NCBI RefSeq assembly: GCF_001939115.1
Contig: NZ_MQTZ01000056.1
Coordinates: 1 to 61,567 of the forward strand
DNA from: Leptolyngbya sp. 'hensonii'
Lineage (GTDB): Bacteria > Cyanobacteriota > Cyanobacteriia > GCF-001939115
Direction: 5' to 3'
DNA: 61,567 nucleotides
Position 1 is the stretch's first letter, and each line of letters begins with the position of its first letter. This document shows, one piece after another, positions 8,179 through 55,057 of the stretch. The position numbers and the translations under genes are program-made. The notes under the pieces were generated by a model. It was given only the letters and a program-made list of their open reading frames with translations. It was not told where the DNA came from and did no database searches.

Positions 8179-8563
8179 GGGGCTGTAACGGTTTCGACGT
8201 GTTGGCGAACGCTGCTTCGTGATTCAGGCCGAGAGTGAGTCTCCTCTCGAAAATCAAAGGCTCAAAAAAAAGTAGATGCGAACAACATCGTTCCTTTTGC
8301 TCGTAAGGCCGTAGCTGTTGCCTAAAAAACCTTTCCAAGGTTAGAGAGCGTTCACAGGTTGACTCCGTTAAGGCTTGTGGACAAACCCCAACGGATGCTT
8401 CAGTCGTTAGCCTCTGGTCTACTGCTGACTAAGACTTTACTAGAGAATCCCATCGTCCGGGATAAGGGACGGTTCCCGCCTTGAGGATCAGATAGGCTAA
8501 GCCTGTGAATGAGCGAAAGGTCAATACCCAATGCGGACACGGGTTCGACTCCCGTCAGCTCCA
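8179..8563 (+). ncRNA. ssrA: Transfer-messenger RNA (tmRNA)
   Basis: One-piece tmRNA of about 385 nt that rescues stalled ribosomes and adds a degradation tag. The 5' end GGGGCTGTAACGGTTTCGAC and the 3' end with a TTCGACTCCCGTCAGCTCC arm and encoded CCA form the tRNA-like acceptor (GGGGCTG pairs with CAGCTCC). The tag reading frame starts with the resume codon GCG at 8278 and reads ANNIVPFARKAVAVA, then TAA at 8323-8325, a recognisable variant of the cyanobacterial tag ending in small residues for ClpXP recognition. The segment between tag and 3' end would hold the pseudoknots, which were not folded here. Confidence 0.97.
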
Positions 8564-8650
8564 TTTTCAAAATAGAACAAGCAGAGATAGAACAATTTTC
8601 TTCTAAAGTAAGACCAATTCAAAACTTGAATTTTGAACTTGGGTAGGCCT

Positions 8651-11600
8651 ATGCAACTTCTCCGGCGAATTACCCTCCTTTACCAGGAAGGCCGCTCCGA
8701 TAAGGTCTATGAAGTCGATCTTTGTCAGGTCGCCCCCGATCGCTATGTCGTCAACTTTCGGTATGGGCGACGGGGCTCCACCCTGCGAGAAGGGGTCGAA
8801 ACTGCCGATCCCTTATCCCTGGCGGCAGCCGAGCGCGCTTTTGATAAGCTGGTGGCCTCTAAGGTCAAAAAGGGTTACCAACATGTCTCTGCTGGCCTGG
8901 AACCTGCTCCACCCCCCTCCCCACTGCCGCCTGCAGAAGTTCCCGCCGATCCCGATGCTCGCCGTCAGCGGATTCTGACCCGTCTTGCTGCGGCCACAGA
9001 AGACAAACGATGGCCCCTGAGCCGGGTGATCTGGCGAGCAGGGGAACTGCAAATCACCGCTGCTGCTCCCCTGCTCCTGCGGTTATTGGGCCAGGGAGAT
9101 GCCCTGCAAGACTACTGCCTTGTCTGGGCCTTAGGACGCTGTGGCGATCGCACCGTGATTCCCACCCTGGAACGTCTGTTGGAGGCCCGTCATATTCCCG
9201 ACATGGTGCGGCGTATTGCCCTGGAGGCCCTATTCAAACTGGCCAACGAAGAGCAGCGTACCCGACTGCAGTCCTTCGTTATTTCCAAACTACCGCCAGA
9301 ACTGCAAGCTGTTGAGACCCCATCCTTTCTACAAACTCTGGATGCCTACCTGAACCAATCCAACAAGGCCAACTGGGAGGTTCTCTATACCCTCTATTGT
9401 CTTGATTTCCCCCCGGTGCGATCGGTCCTATTATCCCGGCTTCAAACCCTTCCCCTGCTGCCGGGCTATTTCCGGCCCCTGCGCCATCTCTTCAAAGCCG
9501 CTGAGTACCGCCAGGATGGGGAAGTCTACGGTCTTCTTGCCTATCGCTTCGAGCAGGAGGACGCCTACTATCGCGATGACAGCTACTATATCCGGCTACC
9601 GGATAATACCTACCTGCAGCGCTACGAGTACACCTACGATTCCGTCAACCACCGCTACGCTCGGAAAGACACCCAGCAGATTAAAGCAGAACAAAGTAGC
9701 CCCACTTCCCGACTGGCCTATAGTCAGAAGACCCGTGAGTATCTGCTCCGCCGAACCTGGCGCACTTTGAGGCGATTGGGGGAACTAGGGGATGCGATCG
9801 GCTACACTACCCTGGCGACGGGTGTTTTACTGGCGCTTTCAGATACCGATGCGGAACCGGTCAGACAGACGGTTCGCACCCAGTATGACTGGCAATCTCG
9901 CCAGAATATTCCCATCGCCTCTGCGGATTGGGATGCCTTTGCCGGATTCATCACCTTTAACCATATTTTGTATGAGCACAGTCCCCGCTATCGGCTAAAA
10001 CCAGGCGGTCGAGCCTGGTCCTGTAAATCACCCTACAAACCCGGTCATCCAGTTCCCCCAGAACGGGAAGAAGCCTTTCCAAACTTGTGGGAACAGCACC
10101 CCGCCCCTCTGGTGCAGCTCCTGCTAGAAAGTCACTGTCGGCCTGTACATGAGTTTGCCGTCAAGGCCCTACGATCGTGTCGTTCCTACTGTGCTGAGCT
10201 AACCCTGGAAATCATTAACCAGTTGCTCAACCGTTCCTATGAGGCCACAGCCCGGTTGGGGTTTGAGTTAGCTGCCGATCGCTATGATCCAACCCAGCCA
10301 GATCCGGAACTGCTGCTGGCGATAGCATCCTGTATCCTGCCAGAAGCCCGTGCTACTGCCCATCAGTGGATTGAGCAAAATCGCCAGGGTCTCCTGGAAA
10401 ACAGTGCCTTGATCGCAGCTTTGATTACCAATCCCCAGGGTGATACCCGTCAGTTTGCACGTCAACTTTTGAGTGCAGCCCCCATTCGAGATTGGATTGC
10501 CGAAGCAACGGTTGGCCGCTCGATCGCGAGGCTCCTGACCCTGGCTCCTGAACAGGTAGCCGTGGCGCGAGATGCTGGTGAGACCCTGCTTTTGAGATTC
10601 GCACCCCAACTGCGAACGATCGGCCTGGGCATTGTCCGGGATCTTCTGCTCCATCCCCTGCCCGAAGTTCAGGAACTGGGAGCCCGAATTTTGCTCAACC
10701 ACCAGACTCCTGCAGCAGACCTCCCTTCCGGCCTGATCGATGCCCTGATTCAGTCTCCTCACGAATCCATTCGGGGCCTGGGAGTTCAGTTACTTGGGCA
10801 ACTCCCCGATCAGATTCTGATCAGCCAGGAGCAACTCCTCCTGACGTTTCTGATCCACGAACAGCCAGAAATCCGCAGTGGGATTCGTCCAGTGCTGAGT
10901 CGCCTGGGAAGCACCTATCCAGAATTTGGCCTGAACCTGGTAACGTTGGCGATAGATCTGTTGACCCGCCCCGAACCCCATGCGGGTGTTCATCAGGATG
11001 TATTGACTCTGCTCCAGGAAGATCTAACTGGTTGGATGGCTACGGCCACTGAGGCCATGGTGCGGACCTTGTTAGGGGCGGAATCTGCAATTGCCCAGGA
11101 ACTGGCTGGGACCCTTCTAGCGGTCAAGGGGAGCACCTGGGCTGAAACCTGGAGTACCCCAGAAATTGTCCAACTGACCCATCAGGAGGTTCTGGCAGTG
11201 CGAGCCGCAGCACGGGAAATGCTGATGCATCTCCTGCCCCGCCTGCGCCAGGATCCTCTGGAGATGGCCGCTGCATTGCGGGTGCTGGAATCCAAATGGG
11301 AAGACTCGCGAGAATTTGGCTTTCGGTTGTTTGGCACTTTTTTCCAGGCTGAGGATTTTACACCCACCATTCTGATCAGTCTTTGCGATAGCACCCTGCC
11401 TGAGGTGCGGAAATTTGGCCGAGATCTGGTCAGTCGTTGTTTTCGGTCAGCCGATGGCCCGGAGTATCTGCTGAAATTCAGTGAACATCCATCGACGGAT
11501 ATGCAACTGTTTGCTACGAATTATCTGGAGAGCTATGCAGTAGATCATCCGGAATACCTGGAGGCCCTACAACCTTACTTTATTCGTACCCTCTCGCAGG

Positions 11601-11848
11601 TCAACCGGGGTCGGGTAGCCAAGCAACGCATCTTCAATTTTCTGGAGCGGGAGGCTCTCAAGAACCGCTTCTCCGCTGAGATCGTTGCAGCCATTTTGAA
11701 TCGGCAATCTGGAACGATCGCCATTACAGATCGGGCCAGGGCGATCGAACTGATGGTCAAAATCCACCGGGCCTACCCTGAAATTCCTCTGGCCATCCGG
11801 GTTCAACCCTTATCGACCAGAAACCAGTCGTCCAGAATAGAACCGTGA
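8651..11848 (+). CDS. WGR-domain protein with long HEAT/armadillo-like repeat region
   Basis: Protein of about 1065 residues. The N-terminal 80 residues fit a WGR domain (ITLLYQEGRSDKVYEVDL, then YVVNFRYGRRG, then AFDKLVASKVKKGY), with Tyr where the name-giving Trp usually sits. WGR domains occur in DNA-repair proteins such as PARPs and in bacterial proteins of unknown role. A Pro-rich linker leads to alpha-helical repeats of HEAT type (for example LLLRLLGQGDALQDYCLVWALGRCGD and repeated LG..LL..P..EVRE.. units), which extend almost to the C-terminus and would form a protein-binding solenoid. ATG 8651 is preferred over the in-frame TTG at 8633. It has no signal peptide and no obvious partner gene. 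The function is not known. Confidence 0.75.
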   Translation: MQLLRRITLLYQEGRSDKVYEVDLCQVAPDRYVVNFRYGRRGSTLREGVETADPLSLAAAERAFDKLVASKVKKGYQHVSAGLEPAPPPSPLPPAEVPADPDARRQRILTRLAAATEDKRWPLSRVIWRAGELQITAAAPLLLRLLGQGDALQDYCLVWALGRCGDRTVIPTLERLLEARHIPDMVRRIALEALFKLANEEQRTRLQSFVISKLPPELQAVETPSFLQTLDAYLNQSNKANWEVLYTLYCLDFPPVRSVLLSRLQTLPLLPGYFRPLRHLFKAAEYRQDGEVYGLLAYRFEQEDAYYRDDSYYIRLPDNTYLQRYEYTYDSVNHRYARKDTQQIKAEQSSPTSRLAYSQKTREYLLRRTWRTLRRLGELGDAIGYTTLATGVLLALSDTDAEPVRQTVRTQYDWQSRQNIPIASADWDAFAGFITFNHILYEHSPRYRLKPGGRAWSCKSPYKPGHPVPPEREEAFPNLWEQHPAPLVQLLLESHCRPVHEFAVKALRSCRSYCAELTLEIINQLLNRSYEATARLGFELAADRYDPTQPDPELLLAIASCILPEARATAHQWIEQNRQGLLENSALIAALITNPQGDTRQFARQLLSAAPIRDWIAEATVGRSIARLLTLAPEQVAVARDAGETLLLRFAPQLRTIGLGIVRDLLLHPLPEVQELGARILLNHQTPAADLPSGLIDALIQSPHESIRGLGVQLLGQLPDQILISQEQLLLTFLIHEQPEIRSGIRPVLSRLGSTYPEFGLNLVTLAIDLLTRPEPHAGVHQDVLTLLQEDLTGWMATATEAMVRTLLGAESAIAQELAGTLLAVKGSTWAETWSTPEIVQLTHQEVLAVRAAAREMLMHLLPRLRQDPLEMAAALRVLESKWEDSREFGFRLFGTFFQAEDFTPTILISLCDSTLPEVRKFGRDLVSRCFRSADGPEYLLKFSEHPSTDMQLFATNYLESYAVDHPEYLEALQPYFIRTLSQVNRGRVAKQRIFNFLEREALKNRFSAEIVAAILNRQSGTIAITDRARAIELMVKIHRAYPEIPLAIRVQPLSTRNQSSRIEP

Positions 11849-11971
11849 TTCCTCTCCCCCAAAATTGCTCAAGACTGCCCCTGATCCCGGCTAATGATGG
11901 GTCATGCCCCTCTTGCAGAGCCTCGCATCCCTTGTCAGGATGGTTTCAGTGACGATTTTCAGGAACTTCAT

Positions 11972-12008
11972 CCCTCGGACCTCTGGTCTGGGGGGTTTTA
12001 TTTGTTTT
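11972..12008 (+). terminator. Rho-independent terminator after the WGR/HEAT gene
   Basis: A 10-bp stem (11972-11981 with 11985-11994, two G-U pairs) with a 3-nt loop is followed by a broken T-run (TTTTATTTGTTTT). It lies 124 bp after the stop codon. Between the stop and the MITE at 12066 no other gene is supported. Confidence 0.65.
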
Positions 12009-12065
12009 GTACCGTCCCTCAGGGCTTGTCATCGACGCCTGCTCGACTGGAAGTTTTGCACCTTA

Positions 12066-12200
12066 GGATCGTGGATTTAATAACTCCGAAATTTTCAGCC
12101 CTCACCCCCAACCCCCAACCCCTCCCCCTCTCCCAGCGGGAGAGGGGGCAGGGGGGTGAGGGCAATCAGGAGTTTATCGGTGTTATTTAATTCTCATTCC
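12066..12200. repeat. MITE-like hairpin element, family A copy 1
   Basis: A 135-bp element with imperfect terminal inverted repeats: left GGATCGTGGATTTAATAAC, right (reverse complement) GGAATGAGAATTAAATAAC. It encloses a C-rich palindrome (CCCTCACCCCC...CCTCTCCCAGCGGGAGAGG...GGGTGAGGG). The element is flanked by TTA on both sides (12063-12065 and 12201-12203), a probable 3-bp target duplication. The right-hand TTA is the stop codon (TAA, minus strand) of the diguanylate cyclase gene. A second copy lies at 21524-21644. It encodes nothing convincing and was probably moved by a transposase supplied elsewhere. Confidence 0.7.
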
Positions 12201-13091
12201 TTAGGGAGCAGGAAAAGAATTCCAGGGGTGAATAATCTGGTTTTTCCCCTGTTGTTTAGCCAGGTAAAGGCGTTGATCGGCTTCATCTAACAGGCTACCA
12301 GACGATCGCAGGGGGGAGGGAATCGTGCTGGCGATACCCATACTCAAAGTCACTTGGGGCGCAATACAAGATTGACTATGGGGAATCTGGAGCCGAGCGA
12401 TCGCAACCTGCATTTGCTCGGCCACCTGAATAGCTCCCTGGGCATCTGTTTGGGGTAGGATAGCAACAAATTCCTCACCGCCATAGCGGGCAACCAGATC
12501 AGAGGGGCGTTTGAGGGTCGTGTGAAGGGCTTGGGCAATTTGCCTAAGGCAATCGTCTCCAGCCAAATGACCATAGGCATCGTTGTACTGTTTAAAGCAG
12601 TCAATGTCGCAGAGGATCACCGATAAGGGGGTCTGATCCCGTGTCATCTGCCGCCATTGATAGTCGAAATAGACATCAAACCGACGGCGATTTGGAATCT
12701 GAGTTAAGCCATCCAGGTCGGCCAGACGCAAGGTTTCATTTAGCTTGAGTTGCCATTGAGCATCCACTACATCTCCATGTTCCATGATGGTCTGGACAAT
12801 TATTTCCAGATCATCCCGTTCCCTGGAAATTATTTCCAGGAGGGTCTGAAGCATAACCTCTGCTCGTTTTCGTTCGACTATCTCAGCACTCAGTTGGATA
12901 TTTGTAGCGTGCAATTGTGCTTCGATAAAGTCCCCATGTTCTGCTGTTGTGGATAGGGCCAGATGTAAATCGTAGTTCTGCTGCCTCAAACGCTCATTTT
13001 CACGCTGTAAACGGTCAATTTCAACTCTTAAGTGGGTCTCTGAAGGCTCAAGCCTTTCCTGACCATATCGTTCTCCTTGATTTGAAAGCAT
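12201..13091 (-). CDS. Diguanylate cyclase with N-terminal coiled coil
   Basis: Soluble 296-residue protein that should make cyclic-di-GMP from two GTP. Residues about 20-125 are heptad-rich coiled coil (EIDRLQRENERLRQQN and more), giving dimerisation. The GGDEF domain occupies about 125-290 with DGLTQIPNRRRFD, the metal/substrate block LCDIDCFKQYNDAYGHLAGDD, an intact GGEEF active site and an RPSD inhibitory I-site exactly five residues before it. The enzyme should therefore be active and product-inhibited. The gene is monocistronic and divergent from the VWA lipoprotein gene. Its TAA stop coincides with the target duplication of a MITE-like element, so its natural terminator may have been displaced. 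Confidence 0.92.
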   Translation of the reverse strand: MLSNQGERYGQERLEPSETHLRVEIDRLQRENERLRQQNYDLHLALSTTAEHGDFIEAQLHATNIQLSAEIVERKRAEVMLQTLLEIISRERDDLEIIVQTIMEHGDVVDAQWQLKLNETLRLADLDGLTQIPNRRRFDVYFDYQWRQMTRDQTPLSVILCDIDCFKQYNDAYGHLAGDDCLRQIAQALHTTLKRPSDLVARYGGEEFVAILPQTDAQGAIQVAEQMQVAIARLQIPHSQSCIAPQVTLSMGIASTIPSPLRSSGSLLDEADQRLYLAKQQGKNQIIHPWNSFPAP

Positions 13092-17420: not shown

Positions 17421-20400
17421 CTAGCGGTTCAGCAACTGATGCATCAGGATTTCCAGTTGTTTGAGAGCTAAGGGTTTAGCCAGATATTCTGTCGCCCCTG
17501 CCTCCAGACATTTTTCCCGATCGCCCACCATGGCTAAGGCGGTCAGGGCAATGACCGGAATATCAGCCACCGTTGGGTCTGATCGAATCTGGCGAATGGC
17601 CTCTAGCCCATCGACTCCTGGTATTTGGATGTCCATCAGCACCAGATCCGGATGTTGAGTCCGAGTCAGGTCGATCGCCTGCTGTCCATCTATCGCCAGG
17701 ATGAACCGGTAATTTCGGCCTTCCAGGTAGCTGGAAATCGTCTCCACATTGGCCTCATTGTCTTCAGCTAGCAAAATCAGAGGGGAACGCCCAGATGGGC
17801 TCGGAACGGCCCCTGGCAGAGACTGAGATGGCGTGGCTATAGCAGGCACATGGACGGGGAGATTGGCTTCATTTAAGGGGCAGGTTCGATCTGGAATCCG
17901 GACCGTAAAGCAACTACCCTGCCCCAATTCGCTCCGAACGGTGACGGCTCCTCCATGCAATTCTGCAATTCGTCGTACCAGGGATAGGCCCAGTCCGGTC
18001 CCACTATACTGACGGTTCAGGCTACTATCAATTTGCATAAAGGGCTGAAACAGTTTATTGAGGTCCTCAGCAGCAATGCCAATCCCTGTGTCTGTGACAG
18101 AAAACAGGACCCAGGAATTCGATGTTGGCATGTTCGCCAACGACTCCATCTGATAACTCGCCTGGCGACTCACTTCCAGCGTTACCGATCCACCTTCCGG
18201 CGTAAACTTGATCGCGTTGTTGAGTAAGTTAATCAGCACCTGGCGGAGCCGACGATCGTCAGCTTGAATCTGGCCAATGTCTTGTGGAATCTGGCTGCTG
18301 AGTTGAATCTTCTTTTGGATGGCCATCTGTCGCACGAAGGTCATACTTGTGTCACAGAGGTTGCGGATGAACACCTCACCCATTTCCACTTCGAGCTTGC
18401 CAGACTCAATTTTAGATAGATCAAGGATGTCGTTAATCAGCTCCAGAAGATGCTTGCCGCTGCGTTCAATGGTCGCGATCGCCCTCATCTGGCGATCGTT
18501 GATCGAACCAAACACCCCATCCTGTAAGCCTTCTGACATCCCCAAAATGGCGTTTAGAGGGGTGCGCAGTTCATGACTCATGGTAGCCAGAAATTCATCC
18601 TTCAGGCGCGTGGCATAGGCCAGGTGCTCATTAGTCTGGCGTAACTGCGCTTCGACCTGTTTGCGATCAGTGATATCCGTCAGGGTGCCGATGTAACCCA
18701 CCTGGATCCCCTCAGCGTCTGTTTCAGGCAGAACTTGGTTATAGGTCCAAATAATTCTCCCGTCAGTGTGAACATGTCTACACTCGATCTGATAGCCTTC
18801 CCCCAATCCGATGCCATGCTCAAACTTGTTGGCCCAATCCTGCAAAATCTGGGCCTGATCTTCTGGATGCAGGGTCTGGAAACAGCCTGTGCCCAGGGCA
18901 GACTCTGGAGGTCTCCCCATCATTTCCGACCAGCGATTGTTGACATAGGTACAATGCCCCGCCGCATCCAGTTGGAAGATGGCAACAGGGGAGGCTTCAG
19001 CCAGCGTTGCATAGCGGCGTTCACTCTCCCGCAAAGCGGCTTCTGCCTGCTTCTGATGGGTAATGTCATAGTTGATGCCAATCATCCGCAACGGGTTGCC
19101 CTGCTCATCCCGTTGCACCAGACCCGCTGCTTTCAGGAAATGGATGCTGCCATTTGGATGAACAACCCGAAATTCCAGGTCAAAGTCTTTTTCTCCCTGA
19201 ACGGCCTGTTCCAAGGCGGTTTCTACCCCTGGAACATCCTCAGGATAGATACTGTTGAGCCAGAACTCGCAGGTCCTCTCAGGCTCAAAGGGGGGCACCC
19301 CGTACAGTTCGTGCATACGATCGTCCCAGATCCGCACGTTATTCACGATGTCCCATTCCCAGGTTCCGATCGCCCCAGATCGAAGGGCCAGGGCAAGCCG
19401 ATCAGAAAGGTTCCGCAATCGCTCCTCGGCCAGCTTACGCTCAGTAATATCGGTTTCAGACCCAACCATGCGGGTCGGATTGCCTGCGCTATCCCACAGT
19501 GCCTGGGCCCGATCCAAGATCCACATGTAGGAGCCATCCTGACGTTTCACCCGGTATTCTTCTCGAAAAAAGGGAGTCTTGCGGGCAAAATGGTTCGCAA
19601 TGGCCTGCATCACTCGATCGCGATCGTCAGGATGAATCTGATTGGGCCATTCTTCCAGGGAGTGAGTCATCCCATCAGCCGAGAAGCCCCGCATCTCCTT
19701 CCATCGGCTTGAGAAGAACACCTGATTGTTCTGCACATCCCAGTCCCAGATTCCATCATTACTCCCCCGCAGGGCCAGTTGCCAGCGTTCCTCACTTTCT
19801 TGTAACGCAGCAGTACGTTGTTCAACCCTAGCTTCCAACTCTTGATTCAACCTGTACAGGGCAGCTTCTGCCCGTTTGCGCGTAGTAATGTCCTCAATCA
19901 CACCAATAAAATATTCTGGTGCCCCCCAAGGATTTCTGACGAGCGAGCCGGTCAGGTTAATCCAGACAATCGATCGATCCTTACGGATATATCGTTTTTC
20001 GATCGCATAGGTCTGGATTTTACCCGCTAGTAGTTTTTGACTCTGCTTCAAGTCGTTGACCAGATCATCCGGGTGGGTGATTTCCTGAAATGTCAGACCC
20101 TGAAGTTCCGCTGCAGTATAGCCCACGATATCGCAGAACCGCCGGTTGAACCGGATGAACTGTCCATTGGGGGCGACATGGGTAATCCCGACTGCAGCTT
20201 GCTCAAAGGTGCTGCGAAATCGTTCTTCGCTCTCCCGGAGTACGGCTTCGGTGCGCTGACGTTCGGCCAGTTCTACTTGGGCCTGCTCAAAAGCACTGGC
20301 CTGCTGAATGGCGATCGCAATCTGCACAGCCAGTTGTTCTAGAAAATCCGGTTCCTCCGGTCGCCAGTGGCGAGCAGCCGCACAATGCTGCGCAACCAGC

Positions 20401-21209
20401 AGACCCCACAATTGCGCCTTGACCAGAATGGGGACCACTAGAATGGCCTTGACTTCAAACTGTTCCAGGAGGTTGATATGACAATTCGTTAAATCAGCCT
20501 GATAAATGTCGTCAACAATCTGTTTCCGGCCCTGTTGATAAGCTGTAGCCCCACCCCGCTCCTGGAAGTAAGTATCCTCAATGTGAGATCCCAATGCTAC
20601 GGCCCAACCTGGCAAGACAGACTCAGCCACAACGGACCCACTCATATCCGCATGGAATTGATAGACCAGGACTCGATCGGTCTGGAGGAACTGGCGGACC
20701 TCGATGGCCGTGGTATGTAGAATCTCATCCAGATGAAGGGATTGGCGAATCCGCAGGGCGATCGCCCCAATGAGCCGCTGTTGCTCCTGGCTATATTCAA
20801 CCTGACGCGCCAGTTGCATCCGCTCGATCGCGCGGTGAATCGTTTGCTGCAGCAGTTCAGGGGTTAGTTTATCTTTGACCAGGTAATCCTGAGCCCCACT
20901 CTTCATGGCATCGATTACCGTATCCGGATCACTTTGCGCGGTCAAAATAATAACGGCAGATTGAGTACTATTACGATACTTTCTCAACTCTTGCAAAAAC
21001 TCTAATCCATTTTGATCGGGCAACAGCAAATCCAGCAGAATCAGGTCTGGCACTTCCTGCTGGCACCAAGCTGCTGCCGCTATTGCAGTTTCAAACTCCA
21101 CAATCTGGTAGGTGTACAGGCTATCCCACCTTAAGAACCGACGATAGAGTATTCGAGCGTCTGCACAATCTTCAATTAGTAATAGGGTCAAGGCGTTGCG
21201 ATCGCTCAT
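17421..21209 (-). CDS. Hybrid histidine kinase with candidate cyanobacteriochrome GAF: REC-GAF-PASx4-HisKA-HATPase-REC
   Basis: Soluble 1262-residue sensor. In order: receiver (about 8-130, Asp60); GAF (about 145-305); four PAS domains (about 322-445, 468-592, 600-722, 725-852); HisKA with His879 in ATMSHELRTPLNA; HATPase ending SGTGLGLSL; and a C-terminal receiver (about 1143-1260, Asp1193). The GAF carries a Cys243-His244 pair in TNCHINLL followed by VKAILVVPI, which aligns with the bilin-attachment Cys-His of phytochromes and cyanobacteriochromes, and has the QGR and DIYQ blocks usual in that group. It may therefore be a light sensor. This is inferred from motifs and is not certain, because related GAF domains can lack chromophore. 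The gene is monocistronic. Confidence 0.9.
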   Translation of the reverse strand: MSDRNALTLLLIEDCADARILYRRFLRWDSLYTYQIVEFETAIAAAAWCQQEVPDLILLDLLLPDQNGLEFLQELRKYRNSTQSAVIILTAQSDPDTVIDAMKSGAQDYLVKDKLTPELLQQTIHRAIERMQLARQVEYSQEQQRLIGAIALRIRQSLHLDEILHTTAIEVRQFLQTDRVLVYQFHADMSGSVVAESVLPGWAVALGSHIEDTYFQERGGATAYQQGRKQIVDDIYQADLTNCHINLLEQFEVKAILVVPILVKAQLWGLLVAQHCAAARHWRPEEPDFLEQLAVQIAIAIQQASAFEQAQVELAERQRTEAVLRESEERFRSTFEQAAVGITHVAPNGQFIRFNRRFCDIVGYTAAELQGLTFQEITHPDDLVNDLKQSQKLLAGKIQTYAIEKRYIRKDRSIVWINLTGSLVRNPWGAPEYFIGVIEDITTRKRAEAALYRLNQELEARVEQRTAALQESEERWQLALRGSNDGIWDWDVQNNQVFFSSRWKEMRGFSADGMTHSLEEWPNQIHPDDRDRVMQAIANHFARKTPFFREEYRVKRQDGSYMWILDRAQALWDSAGNPTRMVGSETDITERKLAEERLRNLSDRLALALRSGAIGTWEWDIVNNVRIWDDRMHELYGVPPFEPERTCEFWLNSIYPEDVPGVETALEQAVQGEKDFDLEFRVVHPNGSIHFLKAAGLVQRDEQGNPLRMIGINYDITHQKQAEAALRESERRYATLAEASPVAIFQLDAAGHCTYVNNRWSEMMGRPPESALGTGCFQTLHPEDQAQILQDWANKFEHGIGLGEGYQIECRHVHTDGRIIWTYNQVLPETDAEGIQVGYIGTLTDITDRKQVEAQLRQTNEHLAYATRLKDEFLATMSHELRTPLNAILGMSEGLQDGVFGSINDRQMRAIATIERSGKHLLELINDILDLSKIESGKLEVEMGEVFIRNLCDTSMTFVRQMAIQKKIQLSSQIPQDIGQIQADDRRLRQVLINLLNNAIKFTPEGGSVTLEVSRQASYQMESLANMPTSNSWVLFSVTDTGIGIAAEDLNKLFQPFMQIDSSLNRQYSGTGLGLSLVRRIAELHGGAVTVRSELGQGSCFTVRIPDRTCPLNEANLPVHVPAIATPSQSLPGAVPSPSGRSPLILLAEDNEANVETISSYLEGRNYRFILAIDGQQAIDLTRTQHPDLVLMDIQIPGVDGLEAIRQIRSDPTVADIPVIALTALAMVGDREKCLEAGATEYLAKPLALKQLEILMHQLLNR

Positions 21210-21861
21210 AGGACACTCACTTTTTCCAGCAGCATAGAACCAGGAGTATCGTGAGGGAGTAACACCATAGCGGGAAACTGGTCACTCAATTTACAGAATT
21301 GGTAGACTCCCTACGGAACTCAACACAGCCTTTCTGAATAGTGGGTTTCGCCCAGATGTATCCACACTCAACAACTCCTTTCTGGCTTCTGCCCCTCCTA
21401 CTGACAACCTTCTTTATGGCCAAGATAACCCAGCCAGAAATAAAAAACGCAGAGAGAAATACGGATATCATGGCCAGAAGCTTTGAAAGAAAAATAGATA
21501 CAATTGCTTAGATTTACCCCTTAGGATTGTGGATTAAATAACCTGGATTTCTTTAGCCCCAACCCCCAACCCCTCCCCCTCTCCCAAATTTGGGAGAGGG
21601 GGAGGGGCAATCAGGAGTTTGACACTTTATTTAATTCTCATTCCTTAACTATTATCTTTGAAGTCAACTGGCTAGTTTCCAGGAGTGTAGCGAAAGTTTA
21701 TAACGATGGTTTCAGAGTAAATTGCATTTTCATTAAGTCGAGGGTGGGGACCATTCCCACCGTAGGGGGCAACCCTCCTGGTGCTTCTTTGTACCTCATC
21801 TACCCGGAAATCGCTATACTTTTCCTCGTAGGTATCCGACCTGGAAGATGGAGAGGACCGC
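21210..21861. other. Intergenic region between two divergent kinase genes
   Basis: These 652 bp separate two divergently read histidine kinase genes and should hold both promoters. The central part is the MITE-like element at 21524-21644. A 61-codon minus-strand frame (21286-21471, starting MISVFLSAFFISG) has one hydrophobic stretch but no other support. Nothing else is recognised. Confidence 0.6.
21524..21644. repeat. MITE-like hairpin element, family A copy 2
   Basis: A 121-bp element matching the copy at 12066-12200. Left end GGATTGTGGATTAAATAA, right end (reverse complement) GGAATGAGAATTAAATAA, central palindrome CTCTCCCAAATTTGGGAGAG, and the shared inner segment GGCAATCAGGAGTTT. It is flanked by TTA on both sides (21521-21523 and 21645-21647). 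The transcript of either strand would fold into a long hairpin. Confidence 0.7.
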
Positions 21862-23856
21862 GTGGCAGAGATGGCTAAACACCCAGAGCAATGCACCCTG
21901 GCAGTCTTATCCGCTCTGAGTTACCGGGCTGGAGAACTGAATCACTACCTCCAGGAAATTGCTGTGAGCATGAGCGAACTCACAGGCGTGGATTGGTCTG
22001 TCGTTACGTTTTGCCAGGATGGCTCAGAACGGCTTCTGGCAAGTTCCATCGATCTGGGGGAGTCTATCCATCAGGTTTATCAGTTACACGGGACCCTGAC
22101 AGGGACCGTGGTTCAAACGGGGAACTGCTTGGTGGTGGAAGATGCGACGGTTTGCCGGGAATACGGAAAGGCACCCGATGGCTACCGGGCTTACCTGGGG
22201 GTGCCCCTGCGTACTCCTGAGGGAAAAATCATTGGTACAATCTGCTCCTTCCACCAACACCCCCGTCAATTTACGGCTGAAGAAGTTCAGTTGGCCGAAA
22301 TTTTTGCCGAACGGGCTGCAACCGCGATCGATAACTATCAGCTTTACCAGCAACAACAGTACATTAACGAACAGTTGCAGGCCGAGGTCCGGGAGCGTCA
22401 GGAAGCAGAACAATCCCTGCGGGAGAGTGAGGCCCGATTTCGGGCTCTGATCGAACAATCTGTGGATGCGGTGTTTGTGCTGGATCCGAGCGGTAGATTT
22501 CTAGATGCAAATCCCCGTGCTCTGGAAAATCTGGGCTATAGCTGGGAAGAACTGCTAACCCTCTCGGCACCCGATGTCCAGAAACGGCTTCCTCCTGGTG
22601 GATTTGCGGCTGCCTGGGAGCAGATGGCTGCTGGCCAGATTGTAGTGGTGGATGGTCTTCACCAGCGGAAAGACGGTAGCACTTTTCCGGTTGAAGTTCG
22701 GGGTGGCGCAGTGCTGTGGGGAAGACGACAGGTGGCTCTGGCGATCGCCCGTGATATTACGGAACGGAAAGAAGCGGAAGTTAAACTGCGCCAGAGTGAA
22801 GAGCAACTGCGCCAGATTGCGGAAAACCTGGAACAGGTGTTTTGGATGTATTCCCAAGCGGGCGAGCCCATTTATATCAGTCCTGCCTTTGAGAAAGTCT
22901 GGGGGTATCCGATCGAGGCCTGGTATACCGATCCAAAATTATGGTGGAAAGTGATCCATCCTGAAGATCGGGAGCGCGTCTATAATGCCTACTACCATCG
23001 TTGTGAAGACCGCTTCGATGAGGAGTACCGGATCATTCGCCCAGATGCTTCAGTGCGCATCATTCGGGATCAGGCCTTTCCGATTCGAGACGAGAACGGA
23101 AAGATTTATCGCATTGCGGGCATTGCAGAAGATATTACAGGCCGCAGGCAGAAAGAACAGGACATGGTGAAGGCGATCGCCTCTCTAGCAGAAGTCGGCG
23201 AACTGGCAGCCATGATTGTGCATGAGATCCGCAATCCCCTGACCACAATTCTGATGGGCCTGAACGCCTTTAACCGCCTGGACTTGCCAGACCCGATGCG
23301 GGAACGGTTGGCCCTCTCCCTGGATGAGGCCGAGCGGTTGCGGAATTTGCTCAGCGAAATTCTACTCTATGCCAGACCCCAGACCCTCCAGCGATCGGCC
23401 CTGGAGCTGAATCAATTCATTGCGGAAATCCTGGAGCCAATTCGAACGATGCCCACTGCCCTGAACCGTCGGATTGAATTTATCCCCTCGCCCCAGCCAG
23501 TTTCCATTCTGGGGGATAAGGATAAGCTGAAGCAGGTGTTTATCAACCTGGTTGACAATGCCTGTGATGCGGTAGCAGAGGGAGAACCGATCACTTGGAC
23601 GATCGTGCCGGATCTACCGAATCAACAGGTCATCCTGCAGGTTCATAATGGTGGCCCCCCTATCCCTCCAGAGATACTTCCCAAGTTAACAAAACCGTTT
23701 TACACCACCAAGCCTACGGGAACTGGATTGGGGCTGGCGATCGTGAAACGTATCGTGCAGGCCCATGATGGGGAGTTGATCCTAGCTTCCTCCGCTGCTG
23801 CAGGCACAACAGTGAGTGTGAGGATACCAATGAGCGAATCTGATGGCCAACTTTGA
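21862..23856 (+). CDS. GAF-PAS-PAS histidine kinase
   Basis: Soluble 664-residue kinase. A GAF domain (about 12-165, with a FYxxHP-like ICSFHQHPRQF block and no bilin Cys-His pair), two PAS domains (about 185-303 and 308-430), then HisKA with His454 in MIVHEIRNPLTT, N box (VFINLVDNACDAV) and G boxes ending TGTGLGLAIV. The HisKA/HATPase type is the NtrB-like group. GTG 21862 is chosen because a GGAGAGG ribosome-binding site lies five bases upstream; ATG 21871 is the alternative. The exported-protein gene follows after 18 bp, so the two probably share a transcript. There is no receiver domain or adjacent regulator, and the partner is unknown. Confidence 0.9.
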   Translation: MAEMAKHPEQCTLAVLSALSYRAGELNHYLQEIAVSMSELTGVDWSVVTFCQDGSERLLASSIDLGESIHQVYQLHGTLTGTVVQTGNCLVVEDATVCREYGKAPDGYRAYLGVPLRTPEGKIIGTICSFHQHPRQFTAEEVQLAEIFAERAATAIDNYQLYQQQQYINEQLQAEVRERQEAEQSLRESEARFRALIEQSVDAVFVLDPSGRFLDANPRALENLGYSWEELLTLSAPDVQKRLPPGGFAAAWEQMAAGQIVVVDGLHQRKDGSTFPVEVRGGAVLWGRRQVALAIARDITERKEAEVKLRQSEEQLRQIAENLEQVFWMYSQAGEPIYISPAFEKVWGYPIEAWYTDPKLWWKVIHPEDRERVYNAYYHRCEDRFDEEYRIIRPDASVRIIRDQAFPIRDENGKIYRIAGIAEDITGRRQKEQDMVKAIASLAEVGELAAMIVHEIRNPLTTILMGLNAFNRLDLPDPMRERLALSLDEAERLRNLLSEILLYARPQTLQRSALELNQFIAEILEPIRTMPTALNRRIEFIPSPQPVSILGDKDKLKQVFINLVDNACDAVAEGEPITWTIVPDLPNQQVILQVHNGGPPIPPEILPKLTKPFYTTKPTGTGLGLAIVKRIVQAHDGELILASSAAAGTTVSVRIPMSESDGQL

Positions 23857-54762: not shown

Positions 54763-54882
54763 TAAAAATTGCAATACTCTTGACAGAAAACCCCTGGCGT
54801 GAAAACCGAACCTTTCAAGGGGTGTCGCCAAAGTTTGCCCGTCCTGGGGACAATCATCTGACAGGGGGGCGCGGGGAGTGCT

Positions 54883-55011
54883 ATGCTGGCTAAGCGATCG
54901 GTTCTGGGGAAGGTCATCCCCCAGAAGTAATGGGGAAAGAGCAGTGCAAATCTGCCGCTGTCCCGCAACTGTGATGAGAGAAGTTTCTCTCTAAGTCAGA
55001 ATGCCCGCCGC
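54883..55011 (+). promoter_or_regulatory. Cobalamin (B12) riboswitch upstream of cbiM
   Basis: Conserved blocks of the cobalamin aptamer are in order: a paired element TTCTGGGG...CCCCAGAA (about 54902-54926), GGGGAAAGAGCAGTGCAAA (54932-54950), the B12-box region GCCGCTGTCCCGCAACTGT (54954-54972), and AAGTCAGAATGCCCGCC near 55009. The box reads GCAACTG where GCCACTG is usual. A small hairpin (GTCTG 55037-55041 with CAGAC 55049-55053) carries a GAGG in its loop shortly before the cbiM start, which suggests control of translation. High adenosylcobalamin should shut off cobalt uptake. Confidence 0.9.
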
Positions 55012-55057
55012 TGTCGCCGTCGGATTGAGTCAACCAGTCTGCGAGGTACAGACGGAC

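Follow-up and report, generated by a model that had tools for sequence, protein, structure and literature searches.

The 135-bp element that follows a diguanylate cyclase gene in the window (the whole stretch of 61,567 nucleotides analysed here, which is contig C56 in a cyanobacterial genome of 5.94 Mb) is, at a rough probability of 85%, a non-autonomous miniature transposon with ISAzo13-family ends, which targets CTWAG, lands harmlessly at gene 3' ends and shows a distribution left by survivorship. The following features describe this insertion, its surroundings and a second copy in the window.

12066-12200, plus strand: copy 1 of the family A MITE, 135 bp, with five 100% identical copies in the genome
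12063-12065, unstranded: left copy of the target duplication, TTA, the same 3-mer on both flanks
12201-12203, minus strand: right copy of the target duplication, TTA, which is the TAA stop of the GGDEF gene
12066-12083, plus strand: left terminal inverted repeat GGATCGTGGATTTAATAA, sharing 17 of 18 bases with the ISAzo13-family IS ends GGATCGTGGATTAAATAA
12183-12200, minus strand: right terminal inverted repeat, reading inward GGAATGAGAATTAAATAA, the same end being present in 67 of 390 Cyanobacteriia genomes
12201-13091, minus strand: diguanylate cyclase (GGDEF) gene, 296 aa, whose stop is the target (PF00990 GGDEF, E 3.7e-53)
8633-11848, plus strand: convergent neighbour gene, HEAT-repeat protein
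11970-11996, plus strand: terminator-like stem with a T-rich tail, outside the element and 3' of the convergent gene
21524-21644, plus strand: copy 2 of the MITE, 121 bp, lying between divergent genes
21521-21523, unstranded: left TTA duplication of copy 2
21645-21647, unstranded: right TTA duplication of copy 2

An earlier note on this DNA had described copy 1 as a MITE-like element bounded by TTA on both sides, with the right-hand TTA serving as stop codon of the cyclase gene. The boundaries proved right, and the complement of 12201-12203 is indeed the minus-strand TAA of that gene. The identification as a MITE held as well: the element is short and devoid of a transposase gene (the ORF list contains no open reading frame of at least 100 aa across the 135 bp), carries 18-bp terminal inverted repeats (GGATCGTGGATTTAATAA and GGAATGAGAATTAAATAA agree at 13 of 18 positions), is flanked by a 3-bp duplication and has many copies dispersed over the genome. 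Each MITE end, taken as 18-22 bp, occurs exactly twice in the window and not once in 100 shuffles.

The stop at 12201-12203 looks natural, the GGDEF gene being neither truncated nor extended by the insertion as far as the sequence tells, because its C-terminus ends about where those of relatives do: 12 residues follow the conserved K/RNQI here, compared with 4 and 14 in two related GGDEF proteins. In three cyanobacterial relatives (L095-L097) a gene that encodes a protein of ~200 aa (containing NYGLSADFLGDYF) closely trails the GGDEF gene; it is missing beside the GGDEF gene of the window, where the MITE and the convergent gene are found instead. A search of viral contigs with this convergent neighbour gene gave no match. 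Elsewhere, the window holds a cobalamin riboswitch (54882-55026) and a tmRNA gene (8179-8566).

Copies in the genome and their relation to ISAzo13

Searching the genome with the element returned 40 scored matches, most of them near full length and five 100% identical over the whole element. The genome-wide collection of copies that the earlier note had proposed was then obtained by pairing both ends, yielding at least 71 non-redundant elements of this end type with lengths of 56-388 bp. An exact 3-bp direct repeat flanks 53 of these 71, and it reads TAA or TTA in 52 cases and TAT/ATA in one, so that a 3-bp TWA repeat is exact in most relatives and TTA stands as the target duplication. Since 22 copies are exactly 135 bp long and average 97.6% identity, the MITE has spread recently.

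The longer elements of this genome (282-388 bp), inspected for what might be left of a transposase, contain inserted hairpin repeats and no recognisable gene, and a search of phage records gave no match. A lone left end followed by a 1-kb stretch on contig C45 (L073) was considered as a candidate IS and rejected; it is a MITE fragment beside a CRISPR-like array. At this contig end (L073:1846-2876), the broken copy lies ~350 bp before the array, whose repeat is ~36 nt long (GTTTTCAACTATTCCAATTTGACCCAATTGGTAGGG). Three further copies, at L014 (C11:104122), L041 (C3:127962) and L010 (C77:2437), apparently interrupt genes far from their 3' ends and are probable recent gene disruptions.

The ends of the MITE are not confined to this genome. 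A MITE end with a TNA flank, allowing at most one mismatch, was found in 67 of the 390 Cyanobacteriia genomes, the reversed-pattern control giving 0, and many other cyanobacterial genomes contain pairs of ends that are separated by 76-178 bp and flanked by TWA duplications. The interiors vary, as in Kovacikia minuta, which has another hairpin between the same ends.

A plasmid search identified a complete IS of 1298 bp in plasmid2 of Calothrix sp. NIES-4101 (L310:3005-4302, 1-based locus coordinates). Its 18-bp ends GGATCGTGGATTAAATAA are perfect, TTA flanks it on either side, and its two reading frames match DDE_Tnp_ISAZ013 and the NCBIfam ISAzo13 transposase. Five more complete ISAzo13 elements with such ends, 1297-1391 bp long, are present in other genomes (L330, L338, L339, L341, L342). 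Their duplications read TTA/TTA in L338 and L342, as in L310, and TAA/TAA in L341, while those of L330 and L339 are imperfect (TAA/TTA). Besides, 52 of the 67 genomes that contain the end sequence have an ISAzo13 gene, versus 86 of the 323 that lack the end (odds ratio 9.6, p 8e-15 with no correction for kinship). At the level of sequence, the ends of the MITE thus match those of complete ISAzo13-family ISs of other cyanobacteria, and we infer that an ISAzo13-family transposase mobilised it. A MITE end type of 67 of 390 Cyanobacteriia genomes thereby receives a transposase family with a name. The assembly of the present genome, however, yielded no ISAzo13 gene that is intact. Since the only ISAzo13 gene found here, a single copy with different outer end bases, is internally deleted and lacks part of the catalytic domain, the MITE seems orphaned, unless an intact ISAzo13 copy lies in an assembly gap.

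A 3-bp TNA/TWA duplication is also typical of IS1031-type IS5 elements and of Harbinger, and this similarity is what might place the elements in an IS5/PIF-Harbinger type system. The transposase genes speak against it: a DDE_Tnp_4 gene was not found in this genome, and most of the DDE_Tnp_1/DDE_Tnp_4 loci examined are without these ends, their readable paired ends being different (GAGGCTGTT..., AGACCTCTTGC...). A few loci have one such end nearby yet no partner end; a scan of DDE_Tnp_1 and DDE_Tnp_4 flanks in this genome and 15-21 end-rich genomes yielded no candidate with both ends. ISAzo13 elements, in contrast, bear the MITE ends on both sides, which makes an IS5/Harbinger origin very improbable and leaves the ISAzo13 family as the preferred parentage.

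In several of these elements (L310:3620-3720, L338, L339 and L342), an A-run immediately after SMDTKK (e.g. ACC AAA AAA AAG) divides the ISAzo13 transposase between two frames, and many further ISAzo13 matches start at profile position 96-97. The recurrence of the A-run split across independent elements suggests programmed frameshifting.

Target motif, stop codons and gene 3' ends

The context of the duplication is palindromic, with C before it in 84 of 106 cases and G after it in 84 of 106, and the target is therefore C-TWA-G. Counted on both strands, CTAAG/CTTAG make up 60 of 106 five-mers in this genome and 62 of 110 in other genomes. Both junctions rebuild CTWAG, because the first base of the element is G and its last base C. 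In line with what is expected if every junction recreates the target, tandem elements lie head to tail with one shared TWA (CCTWAGG) on contigs C20, C27, C28, C29 and C30 (loci L030, L051, L053, L054 and L056).

This geometry also accounts for the fate of stop codons. One strand of C-TWA-G contains TAA and the opposite strand TAG, and there are only two registers in which a stop can share bases with a TWA target: either the duplicated bases are TAA itself, or the stop consists of their TA and the base that follows it, A or G. The first register keeps TAA, and the second gives TA plus the element's G, that is TAG. All 21 stops overlapped by insertions are still stops, TAA or TAG, with a change from TAA to TAG through the element's G in two of them. 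Stop preservation is thus a geometric consequence and therefore, by itself, no proof of selection for preservation; with both registers restored, landing on a stop codon or in the 3' flank beside it is harmless.

The earlier note had suspected a target rule favouring stop codons or AT-rich 3' ends. To place the insertions relative to genes, we called genes with a codon model of our own making that had been trained on the loci analysed and which in the window called 43 genes (88% coding) and the correct end of the GGDEF gene. Our search returned no relatives of this genome closer than the same class, and empty sites are reconstructions, made by removing the element plus one duplication from each locus. 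Insertions were compared with all nearby TWA sites, weighted by the observed five-mer preference. Among insertions with an exact duplication outside genes, 14 of 50 in this genome overlapped a stop versus 5.9 expected, and in other cyanobacteria the overlap was 11 of 53 versus 3.8, the distribution analyses having been refined stepwise on the same data. The final classification comprised 101 insertions, 49 from this genome and 52 from other cyanobacteria, with motif-matched non-coding sites as expectation. Stop codons were overlapped by 21 of the 101 versus 8.1 expected (2.6x, p 1e-4). Positions +3 to +30 downstream of the stop received 12 versus 5.3 (2.3x), and +31 to +100 received 15 versus 12.3. 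Other intergenic sites (32 versus 41.9) and the region 51-150 upstream of a start (11 versus 15.8) fell below expectation, as did positions 1-50 upstream of a start (4 versus 11.7, p 0.009). Coding sites were depleted, with 6 insertions versus 64.2 expected when taken over all sites. For stop codons, the ratio was 1.7 in this genome (10/5.9; 10 of 49) and 3.5 in the others (11/3.1; 11 of 52), and exact stop-codon matches in this genome alone gave p values from 0.0004 to 0.013 in other set-ups.

Taken as a gradient, gene bodies and promoters are depleted and gene 3' ends enriched, the stop codons forming one part of the 3' end. The suspected rule thus stands as far as enrichment at 3' ends is concerned, whereas a special rule for stop codons does not: the 2.6x at stops faces 2.3x immediately downstream, and the density at stop codons does not differ from that of the next 3-30 bases (p = 0.86). 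Stop codons are reached through the motif and the tolerance at gene 3' ends, and no evidence of a special rule emerged. For copy 2, the earlier note was right about the TTA flanks, yet not in using it as an illustration of a stop-codon rule. This copy sits 223-311 bp from both flanking genes, which are divergent (17421-21209 on the minus strand, and a plus-strand gene starting near 21862), and there is no stop codon there.

It might be argued that transposition is actively directed to stop codons or to zones of transcription termination beyond CTWAG, for instance by supercoiling, by the structure of the DNA or by a factor bound at terminators. The excess on stops and in the next 30 bases, its decay downstream and the repetition of the pattern in independent genomes would fit such targeting, and active targeting of 3' ends would give a distribution similar to that of survivorship. 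However, stop codons are no denser in insertions than the adjoining 3' flank, the depletion of coding and promoter sites is what purging alone predicts, and 14 other copies genome-wide lie, like copy 2, between divergent genes. We therefore regard active targeting as unlikely and prefer survivorship; we infer that the concentration at 3' ends reflects the survival of harmless insertions, with selection as its cause.

According to this preferred scenario, the element would have been cut and joined into C-TWA-G, with duplication of TWA, by a transposase of the ISAzo13 type that the assembly now lacks or contains only in broken form, and every junction would have remade CTWAG from the element's G and C ends. 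Most insertions that hit genes or the sequence immediately upstream would have been lost, those surviving would have concentrated at gene 3' ends, about one fifth of them on stop codons, and the insertion after the GGDEF gene would represent one such neutral event. The family thus offers a quantitative case of a small transposon that accumulates at gene ends without damage, the motif and the terminal bases together preserving the stops.

The GC-rich core and the mRNA 3' end

Between its ends, copy 1 carries a GC-rich core composed of the following parts.

12099-12162, unstranded: GC-rich core, a perfect intrastrand triplex motif of 11 triads that can be read on either strand
12099-12109: arm CCCTCACCCCC
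12124-12134: arm CCCCCTCTCCC, followed by the loop AGC
12138-12148: arm GGGAGAGGGGG, followed by CAG
12152-12162: arm GGGGGTGAGGG

Triads (G*GC, A*AT and T*AT) were predicted from a pyrimidine arm, a purine arm and a third strand running antiparallel. By this criterion, all 11 possible triads are predicted for the core of copy 1, whichever strand is read, none of 200 shuffles reaching 10, while copy 2 retains only part of the motif. Across the genome, the core pattern CCCTCTCCC-N(2-8)-GGGAGAGGG occurs at 94 places, window positions 12099-12162 included. Among the places listed, roughly half lie in these MITE ends (3- or 6-nt loops) and half in other repeats (5-nt loops). A second repeat family with a similar GC-rich motif and other ends (about GGGWRCATGTCACYTTTGC) is found at L007:1270-1430, L045:1630-1790 and L083:2800-2960. 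The GC-rich motif seems to be carried by at least two unrelated mobile-like repeats.

The earlier note had further proposed that the cyclase transcript runs into the element's hairpin and that the element may act as a terminator. The first part agrees with the predicted fold, which is strong on both strands (z -5.1 and -6.4); on the transcript strand, a hairpin of -67.7 kcal/mol (z -5.1) directly follows the GGDEF stop. It is this very stable structure that makes it conceivable that the element is kept as a transcription terminator or protective 3' end of the GGDEF mRNA. Hairpins may matter more in the absence of Rho, which, to our knowledge, cyanobacteria lack. The second part of the proposal fared worse, as a T-run after the stem of copy 1 is absent on both strands and a scan for terminator-like sites found them only around 11970-11998 and none inside the element. 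These would serve the convergent gene, which has at 11970-11996 a terminator-like stem of its own. Moreover, E. coli PIT/triplex motifs of the same layout were reported to have no promoter or terminator activity (PMC4666352), and copies of the element are also common between divergent genes. A terminator role would thus be possible but goes unsupported, and we consider retention for a function at the mRNA end quite unlikely, even if so stable a hairpin may affect the 3' end of the GGDEF mRNA; a neutral insertion is the reading we retain.

With this core, an intrastrand-triplex motif that is widespread in bacteria is found within a mobile element, which offers one answer to how the motif spreads. 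A bolder version, which we deem improbable, would have ISAzo13 transposition drawn to 3' ends (from the stop to ~+30) beyond CTWAG, the TWA duplication and the G/C ends having evolved for harmless landing and the elements spreading triplex motifs to gene ends.

Comparison with known elements

MITEs and ISAzo13 elements as such are already known. Prokaryotic MITEs have been reviewed (PMC10969869), and cyanobacterial examples include Nezha and the MITEs of Anabaena sp. 90 (PMC3542288). A full-text literature search for the end sequences returned no paper, and no mention of a stop-codon preference was found in the accessible parts of the MITE literature (PMC10969869, PMC3542288). Likewise, we found no description of the end family, its ISAzo13 parentage, the stop-keeping geometry or a triplex motif inside a MITE in the searchable literature, an absence that is no proof.

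As judged from the accessible parts of these sources, the present elements resemble prokaryotic MITEs, including Nezha and those of Anabaena sp. 90 (PMC10969869, PMC3542288), in being short, non-coding and multi-copy, with inverted repeats, a short duplication and a mostly intergenic location, the likeness to Nezha being one of general MITE features. QMITE2 of Coxiella burnetii is likewise a MITE at a gene 3' end, yet one of its insertions adds 33 residues to the reading frame (PMC5896051), whereas the stop codon is kept here. The core shares with the TM_ECO, BoxC and PIT triplex motifs the order of pyrimidine arm, 3-nt loop, purine arm, 3-nt loop and antiparallel third strand; it differs in lying inside transposon ends, in being palindromic and in being readable on both strands, whereas for the E. 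coli motifs the study reported no link to mobile elements (PMC4666352). With ISAzo13-family ISs such as the Calothrix copy (PF07592, NF033519), finally, the MITE has in common the identical or near-identical 18-bp ends, the G/C terminal bases and the TWA duplication, but while those elements measure ~1.3 kb and encode a transposase that is often split at the A-run, the MITE contains no gene and, in its place, a GC-rich core.
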